A DNA stretch of 64,000 nucleotides from Ceratorhiza oryzae-sativae (lineage: Eukaryota > Basidiomycota > Agaricomycetes > Cantharellales > Ceratobasidiaceae). This document shows, one piece after another, positions 50,241 through 60,867 of the stretch. How positions within the stretch are numbered: the first letter of the stretch is position 1; each line of letters begins with the position of its first letter. The stretch covers positions 340,386 to 404,385 of the forward strand of contig JARWMV010000010.1 of the NCBI GenBank assembly GCA_030998015.1. The letters run 5' to 3'. A model generated the notes under the pieces. That model did no database searches. It had not been told where the DNA came from and worked only from the letters and a program-made list of their open reading frames with translations. Made by a program: the position numbers and the translations under genes.

Positions 50241-50245
50241 ACATT
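50241..50245. repeat. target-site duplication of element B, left copy (ACATT)
   Basis: ACATT directly before the 5' LTR; the same five bases follow the 3' LTR. Five bp is the standard Ty3 integrase stagger. Confidence 0.9.
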
Positions 50246-50335
50246 TGTTATGACCTGTCAAACGGACATAACAAAACAACCAAATATTTTTACAGATTTA
50301 TGGCATTTTTCCTAAGTGGAACAAGCCATAAACAA

Positions 50336-50700
50336 GGTCACGTGACCTCGGCGCTTAGCCGGCGCTTACGGTGGTTACCCTGAACTCGCTCCAGCATTTC
50401 TCTCCATTGTTACTTGGAGTGAGGAGCGAGTTGTCATGTGATCTCGGCGCTTACAGCAGGATCACGTGACCTCAGCGCCTACGGTGGTTACCCTGAACTC
50501 GCTCCAGCATTTCTCTCCCTTGTTACTTGGAGCGAGGAGCGAGTTATCACATGATCTTGGCGCTTACAGCATGATCACGTGACCTCAGCGCCTACAGTGG
50601 TTACCCTGAACTCGCTCCAGCATTTCTCTCCCATGTTACTTGGAGCGAGGAGCAAGTTGTCATGTGATCTCGGCGCTTACGGCAGGATCACGTGACCTCA
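50336..50700. repeat. 113-bp tandem repeats in the LTR, each with a TCACGTGA palindrome
   Basis: TCACGTGA cores occur at 50338, 50462, 50575 and 50688, spaced 124, 113 and 113 bp; the first unit has 11 extra bases (TTAGCCGGCGC region). Each unit also carries GGTGGTTACCCTGAACTCGC and CTCCAGCATTTCTCTCC, and a second, degenerate palindrome (TCATGTGA or TCACATGA). The same array recurs in the 3' LTR at about 60171-60535. Placed upstream of the TATA box, it looks like an upstream activating array for a bHLH-type factor (E-box CACGTG). Confidence 0.8.
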
Positions 50701-50729
50701 GCGCCTACCCCTCGGACCTCGCGCAGCTC

Positions 50730-50735
50730 TATAAG
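50730..50735 (+). promoter_or_regulatory. TATA-like box of the element B LTR promoter
   Basis: TATAAG in CTCTATAAGATTCGG, just downstream of the tandem repeat array. Position fits the U3/R boundary of an LTR. Confidence 0.5.
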
Positions 50736-51027
50736 ATTCGGAGCCGCACAAACTTAAGACAAACAATTACCTAACCCATAGTACTGTACATAACCTACAC
50801 CTACTGCGGAGTGTGCTTAGATAATACGTCCGCAGCCACCGCAGCCACAGGTATATATAAGGAGGATAAAGCAAGACTGGACGCCTCAGCTTGCTTTATC
50901 TTGTCAACCACCATAGACCATAGCAAACACTGTAACTAGAACACCCAATACATACCCCATAGCACCAAACCGTCAACGCAGCCACTACTTAAGTGCTCCA
51001 CAAGGGAGCCTCCAGAGGGTCACAACA

Positions 51028-51148
51028 TTATAAAGCAAGCTCTTAACTTAACTAGTGGCGAACATAAGTATACTGCACAGATACTAAGGGCTGAGTACAC
51101 GAGAAAACCAGCTAACTCCTGTGATACATAAGAGAACACAAAGAAACT
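51028..51148 (+). other. leader of element B with the presumed primer-binding site
   Basis: The region between LTR end and gag ATG begins TTATAAAGCAAGCTC. A primer-binding site should lie here, but I cannot match it to a specific tRNA by eye. Confidence 0.4.
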
Positions 51149-52981
51149 ATGTCACAGAGACCACAAACTCGATCTCAAAGCAGAGTGGCAAATAGTAGGC
51201 CACAATCACCCAAACCCATTGCTTCCCCAGAGGCGGAAGGTAACCCAGATGAGACCCTCCCAGGAATGCCAGGGGGGTTGCCACAAAACCCACGACCAGT
51301 GGCTCAACCCAACCCCACTCGGGCCCCCATCTTGGGAGGGGAAATAGGGGGAATACCACTCCGCAGCCCTCAACCGCCAACTCACCTGATAAATCCAGAC
51401 CCAGAAGATATCTCAAATCCAGAGAGGGATGAGGTAGAAGATATGACCCGAACCATATACAAACAAGGCACGGCCTTGGCGGAAGAGGCAAGGACACAAC
51501 CCCAGCCAGGTCCCGGAGCCATAGCCACTGCCAACCCTATTCACACCATTGCCACCCATCAGGCGGGCGGGGCTCAAGGAACTTAGAGACAATAATCATA
51601 GGGAACTAGAAAAGGCAATCACAGGTATAAATCAGTGTCAAATATCACTAACCCGACAAGAAGGAAACGTGGACTGGATGGTAAGGTCAATGGAAACATC
51701 CAACAAAAATGTCCTCTATGTGGCAAAGAACCAGGACGACCTAAAAGCAGAAATGGGGAACCTGATAAAAGAATTAAAGGACATCTCCATGGAAATAAAC
51801 CGGTACTGGGAATGCAAGAGCGAAAGCTCGAAAGCTTAGAGAAGAAAACCGAAAACACAGGGGAGATCCTAATCGCACTAGAACAACGGGTAACCGATCT
51901 AGGAAATGAGCTCCGGAAAACAACTGAAGCAGGAAGGCCAAGGGAAAGGACAGAAGAAACCAGGGGAAGAACTAGGGTGGTCATAGGAAGCCCCTCACAT
52001 CCCCCTCAGCCTCCCCAGTACGAACACCCTTTCTGGGAAGAACCTTCCAGGCTGAGTCCACAATAAGACCCCAACAGAACCTCCATCCCAAGCAAACCAA
52101 CCTACCCTTGCTGCAAACCACACTCCTAAGGAGGCGAGACTAGGGAGACCCAGCAAATTTAATGGGAAAAAGGGGAAGGAAGCAGAGAACTTCATAATCA
52201 GCATGGAACTTTTCTTTGCTGACTATGACGAATCAGCCTTTGATGACCGAAAAAAGATATCTGCTGTGCTAATGAACATGGAGGATGGGGAAGCAGCAAA
52301 CTGGGCACAACCTTACCGCCGGAAACTACTAGCAGGCGAACACACAGGTATTCTTGCATCCTGGAAGGATTTCAGGAAGGGATTCCTGGATGCTTTTAAT
52401 GACCCAGTCATAAAGGAAAAGACCATCCGGAAACTAAGGAAATTAACACAGACCAAGAGTGCATTGGATTATGCTACCCAATTCCGGATCCTGATCCAAG
52501 AGGTAGACTGGAACCAGGAAGCCCTCAAGGACCAATTCAGGGAAGGTTAAAACCCGAAGTACGACAAGAGATCTTAAGGATTGAAGTACTGGCAAATGAG
52601 GCTGAAGGTCCATCATATACCTTAGATCAATTAATCGACTTTGCCTGCAAAATGGATGACATGCAGTTTGCAAACCAGAAAATGAATACAAGGACCAGCA
52701 ACTCATCAAATTCAACCTGGGCACCAGCGAAATACAAACAAGGGGGGAACAAGCCTTTAGGGACCAGCGGCAAACAGGGGAATACCCAAACCAACAACAT
52801 GGTAAGGATACCAAACAGTGAAAAGGACAGGCGAAGGAAAGAAGGACTCTGTATCAAATGCGGTAAATCAGGGCATGTCCTGAAGGAGTGCCGAGGCCAG
52901 TGGACCTACGACAAAGCTAAGATACAAGGGAAGGCCAGCAGACAAGTTGAGGAAGAAAGCAGCTCTGAGTCGGAAAACTAA
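51149..52981 (+). pseudogene. element B gag, broken by frame changes
   Basis: Starts MSQRPQTRSQSRVANSRPQS, a basic Ser/Pro-rich head typical of fungal Ty3 gag. Next come a coiled-coil-like part (ELEKAITGINQCQISLTRQE), the capsid-like core RRPSKFNGKKGKEAENFI and WAQPYRRKLL, and the nucleocapsid knuckle CIKCGKSGHVLKEC around 52850-52891. It ends in an acidic Ser-rich tail (EEESSSESEN). The frame changes near 51580, 51810, 52060 and 52548, so no single ORF covers it. The product would package the element RNA. Confidence 0.75.
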
Positions 52982-52998
52982 TTGGTCCTACCACTTCC

Positions 52999-53517
52999 AT
53001 GTTGGAGGACCCCAATATAACCCCTACCGCAGATGTATGTTACCTCAAGAAGTCTAGTAATCAATCAATAATATACACTACGGTAGAGGGAATCATGGAA
53101 CCAGCTAAGACGCTGATTGACTCAGGATCTTCAACCAACTTCATCGATAAGGCCTATTCAAGGGAAAAAGGGATCCCAACCACTCCCCTCAAACACAAGA
53201 AATCAATTGTGGCCATTGATGGAAATGAAATCAAGGATGCCATAGAAGAAAGGGCAGAACTAAACATCGAAGTGGAAGGGAAGACACTAAAATGCTCCCT
53301 TTATGTAATGACCCTAGGTGACACAGACATAGTCCTAGGGAAAGAATGGCTTGAAGAAGCAGAACCTATCATAGATTGGAAAGACCTTACCATCTCATAC
53401 CCAACGAAATCAAGGCAAGGGCAGCAAGTGAAAGCCTACAAATCCCAGAAGAATTTAGGGATTTTGAAGACCTATTTGGGGAAGAAGGTTTCCAGAACTT
53501 CCACCCCACCGAGGTAA
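52999..53517 (+). CDS. element B aspartic protease region
   Basis: A frame of 172 codons with the retropepsin active site TLIDSGSSTNFID around 53115 and the second conserved block DTDIVLGKEWLEEAEPIIDW. It matures Gag and Pol by cleavage. The frame ends just before reverse transcriptase, in a different frame, with a probable break near 53505 (FQNFHPTE, then a stop). In related elements the protease is fused to Pol, so this separation is likely damage. Confidence 0.75.
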   Translation: MLEDPNITPTADVCYLKKSSNQSIIYTTVEGIMEPAKTLIDSGSSTNFIDKAYSREKGIPTTPLKHKKSIVAIDGNEIKDAIEERAELNIEVEGKTLKCSLYVMTLGDTDIVLGKEWLEEAEPIIDWKDLTISYPTKSRQGQQVKAYKSQKNLGILKTYLGKKVSRTSTPPR

Positions 53518-53530
53518 CCTAGACTTCAAA

Positions 53531-56409
53531 ATGGACCTGATCGAGGGAGCGGAGCTGCCAAAGCCTGCAAAGAGGTACAGTATGTCGCCAGCAGAAACAA
53601 AGGCGCTCAGGGAGTACCTAGAGGAGGAACTAAGAAACGGGAAAATAAGGCCCAGCCAGTCAGTTGTAGCTGCACCCTGTTTCTATGTGAACAAAGCAGA
53701 TGGAGGGCTTAGGTTGGTAGTCGACTACCGTAAGATGAATGACATCACCAAGCCAGACAGGTTTCCACTTCCAATCCAAATAGAATTGATTGAGAGACTG
53801 AAGGATGCAACCATCTATTCAAAAATGGATGTTCGATGGGGGTTCAACAACATCAGGGTAAAAGAGGGAGACGAATGGAAAACAGCTTTCAGGACAGGAG
53901 AAGGCCAGTTTGAATGCTTGGTCATGCCATTCGGAGTAAAAGAAGGACCAAGAACCTTTACCAGGTTCATGATGGAAAAGTTCCGTGATATAATAGACGA
54001 TTATGTGGTAATCTACATGGACGATGTACTAGTGTTTTCCAGAAACAGGGAAGAACACGTACAACATGTCAGGGAAGTGTTAAGAAGAATGAGGGAAAAC
54101 CACCTCTTCCTCAAACCACACAAGTGTCAGTTCTTTGTGAAGGAGGTAAGCTTCATTGGAATTGTCATATCCCCAGAAGGGATATCGATGGAAAAGGAAA
54201 AGGTAAAGGCAGTTCTAGAATGGCCAGAACCTAACACAGTAAAAGAAGTCCAAGCCTTCCTAGGCTTCGTGGGGTTCTATAGAAGGTGGATAGAGAAGTT
54301 TAGTACCTTAGCCAAACCCCTCACAGATCTCACCCAAAAAGATGTCAAATTCCTGTGGGAAAGAAAACAACAGGAAGCATTTGAAGCTATCAAAGAAGCA
54401 GTAGCAAGAGAACCAGTCCTGATCCACCCAAACCCAAACAGGCCATACATACTGGAAACAGACGCCTCAGGAGTGGCCATGGGGGCGGTACTAAGCCAAA
54501 AGGGTGATGACAACCGATTGCATCCAATTGCCTTCCTATCGAAGAGCTTCACCCCACCAGAGAAAAATTATGACACCTACGACAAGGAGTTGCTTGCAAT
54601 TGTTAGGTCCTTAGAGCACTGGAGGTTATACTTAGAAGGGACAGAGGAACCTATTGTGATATACACTGACCATAGGAACCTCCAGTACTGGCAAAATGCC
54701 CAGATGTGGAATAGAAGGCATGCCAGATGGTATCTCACTCTGGCACCCTTCAATTTTCAGATTGTGTATAGACCAGGGAAACTCTCACAGAAGCCAGATG
54801 CCCTTTCCAGAAGGAGCGACCATGGGGATACCCCTATGGAACCACAGATCATGATTCCAGAAGAAAGGTTCATAGGTTTCATGGCAGAAGTACAGGGGAA
54901 TTTCTGGGAAGAGCTTAAAGAAGCTCAGGAAGAAGACGAATCTATCAGATCCTTAAGGCTGAGTGTGGCAAATAAAGAACAACTACCGCCCTCAGTACAG
55001 AAGGAATTTAGACGGTATGAAATGAAGGAGGGCCTATTAAGGTATGACGATAGGCTCTACATCCCAGATGACAAGGACTTGAGGTTGAGTCTCCTTGAGG
55101 AGTGCCATGACGCCCCAGTGGCAGGTCATCAGGGACAAGCCCGAACACTAGAATTACTATCAAGGGATTACTATTGGCCAGGAATGAAGGCCCAAGTAAA
55201 CCGATACGTGGAATCTTGTGAAACGTGTCAAAGAAGCAAAGGACACAAACAAGGCACTCCCCTGAAGTCCTTACCAATCCCATGGAAACCATGGGCAGAT
55301 GTCGCATATGATTTCATCGTCAAATTACCTGTCTCAAAGGGGTACGACAGTATCTTGACAGTTGTAGATCGCTTCTCCTGGCAGGCCCATTTTGTACCAT
55401 GTCTGGAGAGCACCAATGCAGAAGAACTGGCAGAAATATTCATAAGGGAAGTATGGAGACATCACGGGACCCCAGAAACCACTGTCTCAGACCGAGGGCC
55501 AACCTTTAACAGCCAATTCCTAAAGCCCTATACAAAGGAATTGGGACAAAGCCCAGATTCTCCACTGCTTTCCATCCAGAAACAGATGGTCTGTCGGAAA
55601 GGACAAATCAATGGGTAGAAGGGTTCTTAAGAACCTTCTGCAATTATAGACAAGATGATTGGGTAAAATGGTTACCCATTGCCGAATTCTGCCATAACAA
55701 CCACGTAAATGCTACAACAGGACAAACCCCATTTGAAACAGTATATGGAAAAAACCCAAGATGGGTTGTCCGAGAGGGAGAAGAACCATCTGAGGCACCC
55801 GCTGCAGACAACATGCGTAATCAAATGGAAAAGGTATGGGATGAGGCAAGAGCCTCAATGGAATTACACCAACAAATGGAAAAGAAAGGGAGGGAATTCA
55901 AGGTAGGAGACAAGGTTTGGCTGCTCCTAACAAACCTCTCGTCCAAGAGACCCTCCAAGAAACTGGACAACCGAAAAGGGGGGCCCTTTGAAATCACAGA
56001 AAAGATCTCATCCCATGCATATCGCCTGGACCTACCTAAAACTATACGTGTACACAATGTATTCCATGTAAATCTCCTCTCGCCATTCACAGAAGATAAA
56101 GACTTCCAAAGAAGGCAGGCCAAGCCACCACCAATCATAACGGAAAAAGGAGAGGAGGAATACGAGGTGGACCACATTGCAAATTATGAATGGCGGAATG
56201 GCGAGCTGTTTTACCAAATCAGATGGAAGGGCTACGACCCAATAGAAGACACAATGGAACGTGCCAGCAAGTTTGCTGACATGAAAGAGGTTCTAAATGA
56301 CTTGCAAAGGCGCTTACCAGACGCACCAATGCCAGTCAAGACAAGTCAGCACTCAGGTGACTCGAAAGGCAGGCCAAAGAGAACCAAACGAGGATCTGGA
56401 AAGCTTTAA
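53531..56409 (+). pseudogene. element B Pol: reverse transcriptase, RNase H, integrase, chromodomain; one break
   Basis: A 695-codon open frame to 55618. Reverse transcriptase: RLVVDYRKMN, ATIYSKMDVRWGFNNIRV, VMPFGVKEGPRTF, and YMDD at about 54014-54025. RNase H: ILETDASGVAMGAVLSQ, DKELLAIVRSLEHWR, TDHRNLQYW. Integrase: HDAPVAGHQGQ with CETCQRS (HHCC), the first catalytic Asp in VVDRF and the second in SDRGPTFN. The frame shifts near 55545, and the rest continues in another frame (about 55570-56409) with the catalytic Glu region (HPETDGLSE), GDKVWLLLTNL, and a C-terminal chromodomain (EYEVDHIANYEWRNGELFYQ). The chromodomain steers integration to methylated-histone chromatin. One base loss expl ains the break. 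Confidence 0.88.
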
Positions 56410-56465
56410 AAAGAGCCATCCAAGATACCCAAGAAAGGCCAGAGCCTGCTCTACCACCACCTCAC

Positions 56466-57321
56466 TTGCACCACAACACACCTGCGAAACCCCAAAACAT
56501 GCCTTTCGTCACTCACCCAGTCACACATCCCAACCGTTACACCCCACTTGCTGAAAATCAGGTGGCCCCACTTCGGCAGCCACCCACCACCAGGCGGCCA
56601 GCACCCTACCCTGGCAGGGAAAATCGTCCTAAACCAGGGATGTACTGCTCCAGTGTGGAAGACGCCCAGAGGTACGCTGAACGACTGTTGCCAGGGGCTA
56701 ACCTAGTATACATCCCAAAGAAGTTAAGGGATGAAAGGAACTGGATTGACGATGACAAGTACCTGGATCCCAGGTTAGGGGTCCTGACATGGCATGGAAG
56801 CCGGAAGCCAACAACAAGAAACGCCTTGTTAAGAACACCAATGTATGTCGTCGACAATATCATGGGACCAACAGTCGACATGGTGACCAAGGCAGCAAGA
56901 CAACAGAGGAGGGCCACAGGCCAAATGGCAGACGGAGGGGACTGGGAGGTGGAGCGCCAGGCAAAGGCATTGCTGGAAGAATGGAAGTTGACACCAGCTG
57001 CACCGTATGTGGGACTGCTCGAAGCAACTACCACTGATGAGATGTTTACTGCTATCAGGACAAAGCAGGCAAACATGAATGACTTCCGAAATTGGGTGAA
57101 GGTGCACCCAAACAAAAACACCAATTACGACACTGATATGACAAGCCCTTACATCAAGCCTAGAATCACTGGTCGTGGCTGAGGAAGAAGCCAAGCCAGA
57201 AATAAAGGAACCCACCCTGGACCCAGCTGCGGAGGAAGCCAAACAGGACTGGGACCGGTGGGAAAACGAGCTTGTCGAAGCTCTGGAGGAGGTGCCACTG
57301 TTGGAACCAACCCCCATATGA
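56466..57321 (+). CDS. element B accessory ORF-X, unknown function
   Basis: Follows the integrase in the place where most Ty3 elements go straight to the 3' LTR. A 238-codon frame (56466-57182) starts MHHNTPAKPQNMPF and has a Pro/Arg-rich head, then an ordered part: GMYCSSVEDAQRYAERLLPG, RNWIDDDKYLDPRLGVLTWH, AALLEATTT-like helical stretches and NWVKVHPNKNTNYDTD. From about 57160 an overlapping frame has an acidic, clearly coding tail (EEEAKPEIKEPTLDPAAEE, WDRWENELVEALEEVPLLEP) ending at 57321. A single base change would join them, so the protein may be about 285 aa. No known domain recognised. It could be a capsid-like, envelope-like or host-derived accessory protein. Confidence 0.6.
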
Positions 57322-57403
57322 CCACTTTGCCTCCCACAAATTGTCTCCCGAATGTATAAGAGTTTTATTTTTTCTTTTACACACCAAACTTAATACATTT
57401 CTT

Positions 57404-57945
57404 TTACTCTCTATTTTTACGTTTGCCCTTGAGGGGCCGGGTATAGGGCTTCTTGCCCCTGTTATCCTTCTTATTGGTCTGAACAACTGACCGGGTAGTG
57501 GGCTGCAGCCAAGGAGCCTCCCCCCCTGGGAGGTCGGCCATGTAGTTCTGGAAACACCCAGAACCAGACGCTGCAAAGGGCGAAGCCTCATCAAACAAGG
57601 GAGCAGAGCCCTCCTCGAAGAATTCGGCAAGAGCAGCCTGGTGAGACCGCTCCTCAAAGGACTTGTACTCCTGATCAACGAGCGCCCAGACACGCTCAAG
57701 GGTGGCCTCATGGGCCCGACCATCAAGGAGGATGCGCTCTTCTACAGAACAAGTTAGCTACGTGAGAATGACAAAGAACGAACACACATACCTGGCACCC
57801 CACAGAAGAACCAATCCCCAACACCTTGATAGAAGTCTTCAAGGGAGGCGTCGCACACAGCATCACAGTAGGCGCAGTACTCCCCCTCAGGGAGGGACCA
57901 GCAGGTGCAGTCAAGGGGATTGTAGTTAAGGGAAATAACACGCAT
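57404..57945 (-). CDS. element B antisense accessory ORF-Y, spliced and intact
   Basis: Two exons on the minus strand, 57945-57792 and 57741-57404, joined by a 50-bp GT-AG intron (GTATGT, ending CTGTAG), give 163 aa without a break. The first exon is Cys-rich (PLDCTCWSLPEGEYCAYCDA, DASLEDFYQGVGDWFFCGVP). The second is helical and acidic (EERILLDGRAHEATLERVWA, EEGSAPLFDEASPF), ending in a basic tail (KKDNRGKKPYTRPLKGKRKN). The Cys-rich head may bind zinc; the tail may bind nucleic acid. An upstream in-frame ATG at 58032 would add a hydrophobic segment, but that stretch looks like a T-rich leader. It converges on ORF-X and diverges from the Rep-like gene. Intactness among broken neighbours suggests selection or luck. 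Confidence 0.6.
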
Positions 57946-58487
57946 AGTAAAGAACAGGATGAGGAAGGAAAACAACAAAACCACAAACATTAAAAAATCA
58001 TGGTGCAACACAATAACTTGCACAAACATCAAAACAAGGACTGGTCAGGTGACACCAACAGACGTGTGACCATCTGCCAGAAAACAAACAACAAAGCATG
58101 GAAATCACATGACCTAGCCTAGTCACGTGACCACCTGCCAGAAAACAAACAACAAAGCACAGGAATCACATGACCTAGCCTAGTCACATGAATATACGCT
58201 ATCCCCTAACTACTGGAGGGGTCGGAGAGGGGGCACCGACCGAAGTGGGGGAGCGGAGGCCCCGAGCGTAGCAAGGATCAAGGCCGACGCAGAGGAACGG
58301 ATGGGAGGGCACCCCTTGGAGATGCGTCATCACCGAAATAAGGTCATGTGATCACAACAAATGCAAGACGGAGTCATGTGACAATCAAAACGGACCTTGC
58401 AGCTTATATAGACAAGCACAAGGCCCGAGATAACCCGCACTCTCATGCTCTCTTCCCAGTCCCCAAATACCTCTAAAACTGTAAACG
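57946..58487. promoter_or_regulatory. divergent control region between ORF-Y and the Rep-like gene
   Basis: About 540 bp without coding. It holds a tandem 61-bp duplication (58066-58126 and 58127-58187), CACGTG/CACATG motifs like those in the LTR, a G-rich block around 58215-58260, and a TATA-like CTTATATAG at about 58403-58411 on the plus strand, some 75 bp before the Rep-like ATG. Confidence 0.5.
58066..58187. repeat. 61-bp tandem duplication upstream of the Rep-like gene
   Basis: Both copies begin GTGACCAYCTGCCAGAAAAC and end CCTAGCCTAGTCAC/A; they differ at a few positions, mostly transitions. Each contains ATCACATGAC, and the junction gives GTCACGTGAC, the same palindrome as in the LTR array. 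Confidence 0.8.
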
Positions 58488-59670
58488 ATGCTAAGCGGAA
58501 ATGGATCGAACACGGCAACACCCCAGCCAAGCAGATCAAGCGAAGGGCAGAGGTCGGCGTCGCCATCGCCAGTGCCCTCGGTATCAAGCCGAGCCCCCTC
58601 ACCCGCTTCTATGCGGCCTACGCCGACGGATCAAGGGTCCGAAGAGCTGACCGAAACCGTGCCGGCCCCTCGGTTCTGCATCCAGACCAGGGCGGTGCTG
58701 CTGACCTGGTCGAAGCTACACGATCAGCCCTCAAGTGGGCTCGTCGCCCGATACGAGGCGTTCTGCCGCCAACGGCCAAATCATTGGGTGACTTCGGCGG
58801 TGGTGGAACGCCACAACCCCGAGGAACCGAACTACGACCCGGCCTGGCCCCTCCATGTCCATGCCCTCTCCATCAGTCAGGAGCAGAAGGGCGGCTGGAA
58901 CACCCAGAACACCGGTTCTGGGACTTCGAGGGGCAACACCCCAACATCCTGCCGAAGGACCTCAAGGACGGACCAGGAGGCAACCCAGCAAGGGATGCCT
59001 TCAACTATCTCTGGAAGGACGTTGGAGCTAATGGCGAGGAGATAGAGGACCTGATGGCGGGGGACCTGACCTTGGAAAGGTTGGAGGAGATTTTGGTAAA
59101 GGGAAAGGGCGGAAAACGGTCAAGGATGGAGGCAGACTTGGAGGATGGGACGGAGATTGTTGCCTCAGCAACAAAACAGGAGTACTACCAGGCGTTCAAG
59201 CGCCTCCGCCCCCTCCAGATGGTGACGACGTGGAACTCGGTACGAGCATATGCCGAGTACACATACAAGGAAGACCAGGGTTGCATGCCTGCAATCCCTG
59301 TGGAGTTAGAGGTCCCGGAAGACTGGGAGCACATCGACCGAGCAGACAGATGGTTTGCCGAGGAGGTCGAGAAGAAGGGAAGAGGGGTGCGCCATCGCAT
59401 CCTGGTGATAGAAGGAGAAACTGGAACGGGGAAAACGGCATATGCACGATCCAAGGGCTGCCACAGCCAGATGTGCAATGTGTGGAATATGGGCAACTTG
59501 TCGGAAGATGCCGACATTTGGATCCTGGATGACATGGTCCAGTCGAACGGAAGTACTCGCTCAAGGCCCTGAGCCAGTACGAGGCGGACTTCACAGGCAG
59601 GTACGCGCATGTGAAATCGATGAAGGTACGGCCAACAGTCATTCTGGGAAATAGCCGTCGGCAATCATGA
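58488..59670 (+). pseudogene. Rep-like protein gene (HUH endonuclease plus SF3 helicase), two frame breaks
   Basis: Proteins of this kind start rolling-circle replication of small circular ssDNA viruses (CRESS type, including geminivirus relatives) by nicking at an origin and unwinding. The start at 58488 opens a Ser/Pro-rich head. Within the first frame: endonuclease motif 1 RAVLLTWSK and motif 2 HVHAL. The frame changes near 58915. The second frame has a motif-3-like Tyr in FNYLWKD, then Walker A GETGTGKT (about 59412-59435), and Walker B DADIWILDDM (about 59509-59538). The frame changes again near 59548; the third holds the motif-C-like VILGN and stops at 59670. Length (1183 nt, two short of a multiple of three) and motif order fit a full-size Rep. 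As it stands the gene is broken. It lies inside an LTR element, not as a free insertion. Motif assignment by eye only. Confidence 0.75.
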
Positions 59671-59771
59671 AATGTTGGTTGGACATAGAGGGGGAAGAAG
59701 GGGACTTATGGGTATCAAGAAATGTGGAATGGGTGTATGCAGGAGGAAAGCCATTCTTTGTATTCCCTTAG
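59667..59771 (+). CDS. 34-codon ORF overlapping the Rep-like stop (ATGA)
   Basis: The ATG shares bases with the TGA that ends the third Rep-like frame. The product, MKCWLDIEGEEGDLWVSRN followed by a hydrophobic aromatic end (KPFFVFP), could be a natural C-terminal part of the Rep-like gene displaced by another frame change, a tiny separate ORF, or chance. Confidence 0.25.
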   Translation: MKCWLDIEGEEGDLWVSRNVEWVYAGGKPFFVFP

Positions 59772-59907
59772 AATAATTTATGGTACTGTACAACTTCTGC
59801 TATGCCCATCCAAACAGTTGGGGCTTTCTGAGAAGAAGCAGACAAATCCTCACCCCTAAATAACCTCCACAACAAAGAAAAGAAAAACAATCTCATGTAA
59901 CGGAGAG

Positions 59908-59996
59908 GTTAAGGGGTCTAGCCTGACTCAGCCTGACCTCATCGAATGATACTGAATCAGCCGAAAGGTCGTTGGTTCGAGTCCAGCGCCCTTAAC
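59908..59996 (+). tRNA. tRNA-like hairpin, probably a degenerate tRNA gene
   Basis: The B-box GGTTCGAGTCC is perfect, inside a good T arm (GTTGG, TTCGAGT, CCAGC at 59971-59987). The ends GTTAAGGG and CCCTTAAC pair over eight bases and the pairing extends outward with TCTCATG (59891) and CATGAGA. The middle is less regular: TGACTCAG and CTGAATCA can form an anticodon-like stem enclosing about 20 bases, as with an intron, but the D arm lacks the usual GG. It sits between the cargo and the polypurine tract of element B. Confidence 0.35.
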
Positions 59997-60066
59997 CTCC
60001 TTGGTGCATGAGATTCCTTTTGCATAAGGAACTAAACCATGTCTTGAGGTCCCCCAAGACATGTCC

Positions 60067-60080
60067 AAAGGGGGGGATAA
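60067..60080 (+). other. polypurine tract of element B
   Basis: AAAGGGGGGGATAA directly before the 3' LTR; it primes plus-strand DNA synthesis in LTR elements. Confidence 0.8.
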
Positions 60081-60862
60081 TGTTATGACCCGTCAAACGG
60101 ACATAACAAAACAACCAAATATTTTTACAGATTTATGGCATTTTTCCTAAGTGGAACAAGCCATAAACAAGGTCACGTGACCTCGGCGCTTAGCCGGCGC
60201 TTACGGTGGTTACCCTGAACTCGCTCCAGCATTTCTCTCCATTGTTACTTGGAGCAAGGAGCGAGTTGTCACGTGATCTTGGCGCTTACGGCAGGATCAC
60301 GTGACCTCAGCGCCTACGGTGGTTACCCTGAACTTGCTCCAGCATTTCTCTCCCTTGTTACTTGGAGCGAGGAGCGAGTTATCACGTGATCTTGGCGCTT
60401 ACAGCATGATCACGTGACCTCAGCGCCTATGGTGGTTACCCTGAACTTGCTCCAGCATTTCTCTCCCATGTTACTTGGAGCGAGGAGCGAGTTGTCACGT
60501 GATCTCGGCGCTTACGGCAGGATCACGTGACCTCAGCGCCTACCCCTCGGACCTCGCGCAGCTCTATAAGATTCGGAGCCGCACAAACTTAAGACAAACA
60601 ATTACCTAACCCATAGTACTGTACATAACCTACACCTACTGCGGAGTGTGCTTAGATAATACGTCCACAGCCACCGCAGCCACAGGTATATATAAGGAGG
60701 ATAAAGCAAGACTGGACGCCTCAGCTTGCTTTATCTTGTCAACCACCATAGACCATAGCAAACACTGTAACTAGAACACCCAATACATACCCCATAGCAC
60801 CAAACCGTCAACGCAGCCACTACTTAAGTGCTCCACAAGGGAGCCTCCAGAGGGTCACGACA
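60081..60862 (+). repeat. 3' LTR of element B
   Basis: 782 bp, TGTTATGACC to CACGACA, followed by the ACATT duplication at 60863-60867. It carries the same 113-bp repeats and palindromes (about 60171-60535) and the same TATA-like box as the 5' copy. Confidence 0.92.
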
Positions 60863-60867
60863 ACATT
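60863..60867. repeat. target-site duplication of element B, right copy (ACATT)
   Basis: Matches 50241-50245 exactly. Confidence 0.9.

Follow-up and report, generated by a model that had tools for sequence, protein, structure and literature searches.

The locus analyzed here raises the question of why a gene resembling the Rep of circular single-stranded DNA viruses lies inside an LTR retrotransposon, and whether it is a regular gene of that element or a passenger. The window, i.e., the whole stretch of DNA analyzed, comprises 64,000 nucleotides of Ceratorhiza oryzae-sativae (contig JARWMV010000010.1, positions 340,386 to 404,385, forward strand), and the coordinates below are positions within it.

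Structure of the Element and Position of the Rep-Type Gene

Element B is a full-length Ty3 chromodomain LTR retrotransposon (50246-60862), whose features are the following:

50241-50245 and 60863-60867, target duplication ACATT (5 bp) on both outer flanks of the element
50246-51027, + strand, 5' LTR of 782 bp with TG..CA ends
51030-51041, + strand, probable primer-binding site of the self-priming (Tf1) type, its 12 nt being the complement of LTR positions 50888-50899
52056-52981, + strand, frame-broken gag (Retrotrans_gag over cut-off at 52056-52550; zinc knuckle below cut-off at 52403-52981)
52969-56409, + strand, aspartyl protease (52969-53517) followed by reverse transcriptase (RT), RNase H, integrase and chromodomain (pol)
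56361-57182, + strand, ORF X, which overlaps the last part of pol and matches no Pfam family over cut-off
57404-57945, - strand, antisense gene, apparently of two exons, with a GT..AG intron near 57740-57800 (start and splice sites placed by eye)
58045-58487, + strand, intergenic region that separates Rep from the antisense gene; it contains a 61-bp direct repeat in two copies (58066-58187) and a TATA box (58405-58412)
58488-59771, + strand, Rep-type gene (HUH endonuclease and SF3-type helicase) between pol and the 3' LTR, with three frame breaks
59883-60021, + strand, long hairpin lying between Rep and the 3' LTR and containing a sequence similar to the tRNA box B
60081-60862, + strand, 3' LTR of 782 bp

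The TG..CA ends of the LTRs, the short target duplication and the order of the domains are those of Ty3 chromodomain elements. Retrotrans_gag, RVP_2, RVT_1, RT_RNaseH, Integrase_H2C2, the Tf2-type SH3 domain and Chromo were all detected over the Pfam cut-off, and rve, whose frame is broken, was found below it. In the window copy pol is carried by two frames (53468-55618 and 55510-56409). Self-priming is a trait of Tf1/sushi elements, and the 12-nt complementarity to the interior of the LTR, placed just after the 5' LTR, fits priming of this kind. The location of the Rep-type gene within the LTRs of a Ty3 element, as proposed by the first-pass annotation, was thus confirmed by the two LTRs and by the ACATT present on both sides. 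The LTRs differ from each other at 15 of their 782 positions, all 15 differences being transitions. Repeats at a 113-bp spacing were also observed inside the LTR, and the sequence CACGTG occurs four times in the 5' LTR and seven times in the 3' LTR. When the genome was searched with this LTR, the best 40 of 674 candidate places were scored. The element itself interrupts a gag-type frame that belongs to another retroelement (60775-61782 matches Retrotrans_gag over cut-off; the two halves were joined by eye).

Endonuclease and SF3 helicase motifs had been described at this place, and all of them were located. LLTWS and HVHAL are encoded in frame 1 (from 58488), YLWK, GETGTGKT (Walker A) and WILDDM (Walker B) in frame 2, and VILGN (motif C) in frame 3. 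The ending FFVFP is found in a further frame, which runs up to a stop at 59771. Since FFVFP is the C-terminal end of the unbroken Rep copies, the window copy contains three frame breaks, instead of the two initially counted, and the gene ends about 100 bases beyond position 59670, where it had been closed too early. Gag, pol and Rep are all frame-broken in this copy and, therefore, it probably cannot move by itself.

Neighboring Genes, Promoter and Tail Hairpin

ORF X appears to be coding, and in its most divergent copies the changes are commonest at codon position 3. In some copies it is about 30% different despite a near-identical pol. A third-position bias was also observed in both exons of the antisense gene, again in the most divergent copies; no Pfam family was over cut-off for this gene, and of the 30 candidates in a protein search with its exon 2, none reached E ≤ 0.01.

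The antisense gene and Rep diverge around approximately 540 bp, with the TATA box ahead of Rep, in an ambisense layout like that of single-stranded DNA viruses. Among the five copies compared, the TATA box is the same in L017, L027 and L028, and its pattern was unmatched in L034 and L039. The intergenic region (58045-58487) showed no unusual DNA fold (z -1.3). The hairpin behind Rep folds far better than shuffled sequences (z -4.9 for 59895-60012), and in 16 aligned copies of different subfamilies its inner stem is nearly invariant and its middle variable. Its reading as a tRNA was rejected, being unsupported by ARAGORN or Rfam.

The Rep-Type Gene in Other Copies of the Element

The possibility that other copies of element B lack this segment was examined with the best 40 of 374 candidate pol copies, and it failed: Rep was present downstream and on the same strand in 34 of the 40. 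The remaining copies comprised one with a fragment, one without Rep, one at a contig end and three that were left out. The 27 best-scoring pol copies are 98-100% identical. A listed Rep on the same strand follows pol in 17 of the 40, at a distance of 1984-2052 bp in 13 of them and of 3.3-6.7 kb in the other four; for two of these four, a nearer Rep was listed in the protein search. The downstream DNA was read for 20 of the remaining 23 copies, and 17 of these stretches contained at least about 1 kb of Rep, preceded successively by pol, X and the antisense gene, with insertions in some. Rep itself is split by an insertion in L024, L032 and L036. L023 retains only a 3' fragment of Rep, L026 runs into the end of its contig, and L022, which has lost everything 3' of X, is the single clear case of absence. 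Rep is, thus, a regular gene of the element, found at the same place in nearly all the copies examined in this genome.

Additional searches of the genome were performed at the DNA and protein levels. The search with 58401-60080 (best 40 of 190 candidates scored) gave 23 full-length copies at 96-100% identity, and the protein search with a Rep relative matched at all 95 places scored (of 231 candidates). An unbroken Rep frame of 427-442 amino acids was found in 11 of the 40 loci read (L002, L005, L008, L011, L015, L017, L018, L028, L031, L033, and L038), and nine of these 11 keep every catalytic motif residue. In L008 the last Walker A residue is changed, and L038 carries a change at the same residue and another in Walker B; the HIH motif of L033 is intact. 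The other 29 loci lack a full Rep frame; this number includes L022, L023, and L026, with no whole gene beside their pol.

The copies L021-L040 are mosaic, with pol 98-100% identical and with 3' modules and LTRs that are 10-30% different. A near-identical pol joined to such divergent 3' modules and LTRs is a sign of recombination, and suggests exchange between subfamilies of the element.

Relatives and Family Membership of the Rep-Type Protein

A search of 5.8 billion proteins detected 49 relatives of the Rep-type protein at E ≤ 0.01, and 80 when a profile was used, the last of these being doubtful. Their identity was 47-79%, and they came from Ceratobasidium species and metagenomes; all of the relatives with an organism label were from Ceratobasidium (AG-Ba, 394, 395, 414, 428, and UAMH 11750). 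Candidates in this search need exact shared words of five residues, so distant viral Reps would be missed by it. Three alignments were built: A1, with 21 of the 49 relatives and two frames of the own genome; A2, with 24 of the 49; and A3, with 68 of the 80, from which twelve were dropped as short, redundant or of odd length.

HUH and Tyr-x-x-Lys are motifs by which CRESS-type Reps are defined, and the protein presents both, followed by SF3 Walker A, Walker B (DD) and motif C (Asn). L017, whose protein is unbroken (428 residues), has the motifs at residues 72, 123, 174, 310, 345, and 385, and CRESS Reps have the same order with roughly the same spacing. This ordered and spaced pattern, which was composed after the protein had been seen, did not occur in any of 300,000 residue shuffles of the L017 protein. 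Among the A3 rows with a letter present, the two His of motif II are conserved in 42 of 43 and 40 of 43, the Tyr and Lys of motif III in 44 of 46 and 44 of 49, the Walker A Lys in 51 of 53, the two Walker B Asp in 50 of 50 and 46 of 49, and the motif C Asn in 45 of 46.

Support from profiles was weak. No family of any kind exceeded its curated Pfam cut-off with this protein, and Gemini_AL1_M was the only Rep model that responded (best score 19.5 bits, cut-off 24). It matched eight of the 24 A2 members at E ≤ 1 (best 0.001, other values 0.026 or worse) over 96-100 residues, nearly the whole profile, ending at Walker A. The catalytic-domain model Gemini_AL1 had no match at E ≤ 1 in the Pfam scans of the window piece, the copies and the relatives. 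An unrelated P-loop protein, the other outcome contemplated by the first-pass annotation for such profile searches, was not shown by them, and on the Rep side they contributed the near-full-length, sub-threshold match to Gemini_AL1_M.

The remaining collections gave no closer relative. No Rep was among the PDB matches of a profile search, and the PDB sequences held no convincing relative. Matches to PHROGs were weak, DnaA-like and ATPase families among them, and ten weak NCBIfam families appeared, the one score shown being far under its cut-off. A tblastn search of plasmids with E up to 10 gave a single match at E 1, judged irrelevant. PF00910 had no match in the own genome and matched in seven of 14 control genomes. 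Protein and alignment scans of the viral collection detected no relative of the Rep-type protein, and two gemini-type Walker A patterns had no match there; a broader pattern gave 90 candidate stretches, the 80 listed lying on contigs of at least 6 kb. AlphaFold models reached a mean pLDDT of 37.5 and 39.6, too low for reading the fold. The protein is best regarded as putatively Rep-type, a label that derives from the motifs, their order, spacing and conservation, and not from a formal family match.

Two other kinds of mobile element were considered and rejected. A Helitron was discarded, since no Helitron or SF1 family was among the Pfam matches (E ≤ 1) and LTRs and a 5-bp duplication are present. 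A nested TIR transposon was discarded as well, since the tail hairpin and six pairs, each of 14-23 nt, were all that 56380-60080 contained, with no flanking inverted repeats, and no transposase family was detected among the ORFs scanned. Moreover, none of the patterns tried for a TAATATTAC-like CRESS nonanucleotide matched on either strand of 50246-60862.

A tree restricted to the Rep family was built with 26 rows (19 of the 80 relatives and seven of the 12 own-genome frames). The own-genome copies, AG-Ba and two metagenome groups each formed one clade with starred support, which would fit descent with the host lineages and amplification or homogenization within each. Two oddities were noted in it, the long branch of P0061 and the odd composition of the L038 row. 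The metagenomic relatives P0023, P0045, and P0078 share an inserted stretch of some 24 residues at a single position, and P0022 and P0043 start within it. This insertion, which looks like an unspliced intron, is missing from P0021, P0024, and the aligned own-genome and AG-Ba copies.

Selection on the Rep-Type Gene and Its Possible Role

The comparison of L002 with L028, L031, and L033 gave a dS of 0.35-0.42 and a dN of 0.04-0.07, corresponding to dN/dS ratios of 0.11-0.17, and the ratios rose to 0.18-0.39 when L038, an odd copy, was the partner. In 58922-59530, 57 of the 85 differences between L028 and the window copy are at third codon positions. The Rep gene is, thus, held by purifying selection between subfamilies, most strongly in its helicase part. 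Within the main subfamily dN/dS was 0.30-0.58, and, since these changes are few and mostly transitions, its recent copies may be drifting.

The best explanation overall, and one considered reasonably probable, is that a captured Rep has been kept as a gene of the element and acts on the DNA of the element. In Ceratobasidium-like fungi, Rep would have been captured from geminivirus-like circular single-stranded DNA viruses or plasmids by an ancestor of this Ty3 chromovirus and retained 3' of pol as a distinct gene, presumably transcribed from its own TATA promoter. The protein would nick, join and unwind the DNA of the element, with circular cDNA that has not integrated and is present in the nucleus as its most likely substrate, and more DNA template might thereby be obtained from each reverse-transcription event. 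A bolder version, in which the element is a hybrid replicon that combines RNA copying with Rep-driven rolling-circle amplification of circular DNA starting at the hairpin near the 3' LTR, is considered unlikely. An element with such a Rep gene would bring together two ways of replicating, reverse transcription and rolling-circle initiation, and would provide a route for moving and domesticating Rep genes of single-stranded DNA viruses in fungi. Retroelement cDNA circles are usually regarded as dead ends, and the question opened is whether they can act as replication templates.

Geminivirus Rep is also known to perturb the cell cycle or DNA methylation. Selection on Rep could, by the same token, be aimed at control of the host, with silenced copies becoming expressed through such perturbation, and this reading is possible but not likely. 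In agreement with it, 22 of the 25 differences between L002 and L005 are, like all of those between the LTRs, transitions, as expected under cytosine methylation or RIP-like mutation. An orchid Ty3 lineage with an AlkB demethylase was, moreover, related to host surveillance by its authors in the portion of the article available (PMC9289625). However, the catalytic residues of both nuclease and helicase are conserved in the Rep-type protein, and a pure binding role would not need them.

The regional distribution of the changes bears on another proposal, that Rep is kept mainly as a helicase that aids the unwinding of cDNA or RNA, its endonuclease part being a relic. Over six between-subfamily pairs, pN/pS was 0.05-0.10 in the SF3 helicase part and rose through the central part (0.12-0.21) to the HUH part (0.20-0.47), which is accordingly less constrained than the helicase; the first 60 residues gave values scattered from 0.24 to 5.4, with no consistent constraint. 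A parallel exists in the helicase domains of viral origin described in insect LINE elements, according to the part of that report available (PMC5563155). Nevertheless, the HUH and Tyr/Lys residues are nearly invariant in the database relatives, and the ratio of the HUH part is based on few changes, since in the N-terminal part the L027/L028-type copies are hardly further from the window copy than L011. The L028-type copies are at most about 8% different from the window copy in 58488-58890, with no third-position bias, and L034, L035, L039, and L040 are about 20% different, with at most a weak bias (30-39 of 77-85 differences). A role as helicase alone is, on balance, rather improbable.

A further reading, that the protein belongs to unrelated P-loop ATPases of the STAND or ORC/Cdc6-like kind and resembles Rep by chance, is very improbable. 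Sub-threshold matches to nSTAND3 (17 of 24), AAA_22 (nine of 24) and ORC1-type models (two of 24) were obtained in A2, the relative P0069 is annotated as a Cdc6-like ATPase, and no Rep family was over cut-off. Nonetheless, the nSTAND3 and AAA_22 matches observed span some 19-40 residues at Walker A, compared with the 96-100 of Gemini_AL1_M, and HUH, Tyr-x-x-Lys and Walker A, B, and C follow one another in order and are conserved across species. PRMT5_TIM (five of 24 in A2, about 60 residues) outscored Gemini_AL1_M by E-value in three cases, the window piece, L017, and L015, and P53_TAD and Jiv90 were among the isolated odd weak matches; all of these, together with the short P-loop matches, were taken as chance. 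Finally, that Rep is a functionless sequence copied passively with the element is hardly credible, for although most loci, including the window copy, lack a full frame, such a passenger pseudogene is contradicted by the substitution patterns between subfamilies, the 11 unbroken frames and the same motifs in other species.

Comparison With Known Systems

A captured Rep that serves the element, the explanation favored here, was compared with the systems it most resembles. With the geminivirus-like branch of CRESS-DNA Reps the protein shares the order and spacing of the motifs and the weak, near-full-length Gemini_AL1_M match; in contrast to them, it is carried by an LTR retrotransposon, without the nonanucleotide and without a virus relative in the searches made. 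Element B resembles the Tf1/sushi-like Ty3 chromoviruses in its LTRs, gag, protease, RT, RNase H, integrase, chromodomain and apparent self-priming, and differs from them by three additional genes 3' of pol, including the antisense gene and the Rep-type gene.

Rep-like genes in fungi, and a Rep-bearing TIR transposon in Tuber melanosporum, have been previously described (Liu et al., 2011; PMC3198968). In the available text of that work, the Tuber element is likewise a case of a fungal Rep-like gene multiplied with a mobile element. It is bounded by terminal inverted repeats of 37 bp, encodes transposase ORFs, lacks obvious target duplications and has its Rep interrupted, whereas the family studied here is bounded by LTRs, encodes gag-pol, has a target duplication and includes copies whose Rep frame is unbroken. 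The string "retrotranspos" is absent from the main text of that article.

A broken Rep fragment present in about one copy, thought to be inserted by a LINE, was reported in Chaetoceros tenuissimus (PMC8613185); as far as the available part of that report goes, it shares with element B a single-stranded DNA virus Rep sequence in a host genome and a link to retrotransposons, but it is not a gene carried by the retrotransposon. LTR retrotransposons with captured extra ORFs are known from bdelloid rotifers (PMC5408684) and from the AlkB Gypsy elements of orchids (PMC9289625); these have a foreign enzyme gene as an additional ORF, and no Rep or helicase is named in the abstracts of those articles. 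In the titles and beginnings of abstracts covered by the literature search, with preprints and most subscription papers outside its scope, no Rep gene in an LTR retrotransposon was found. The capture of ORFs by LTR elements is already known, and the combination of Rep with LTRs is far from the known examples.
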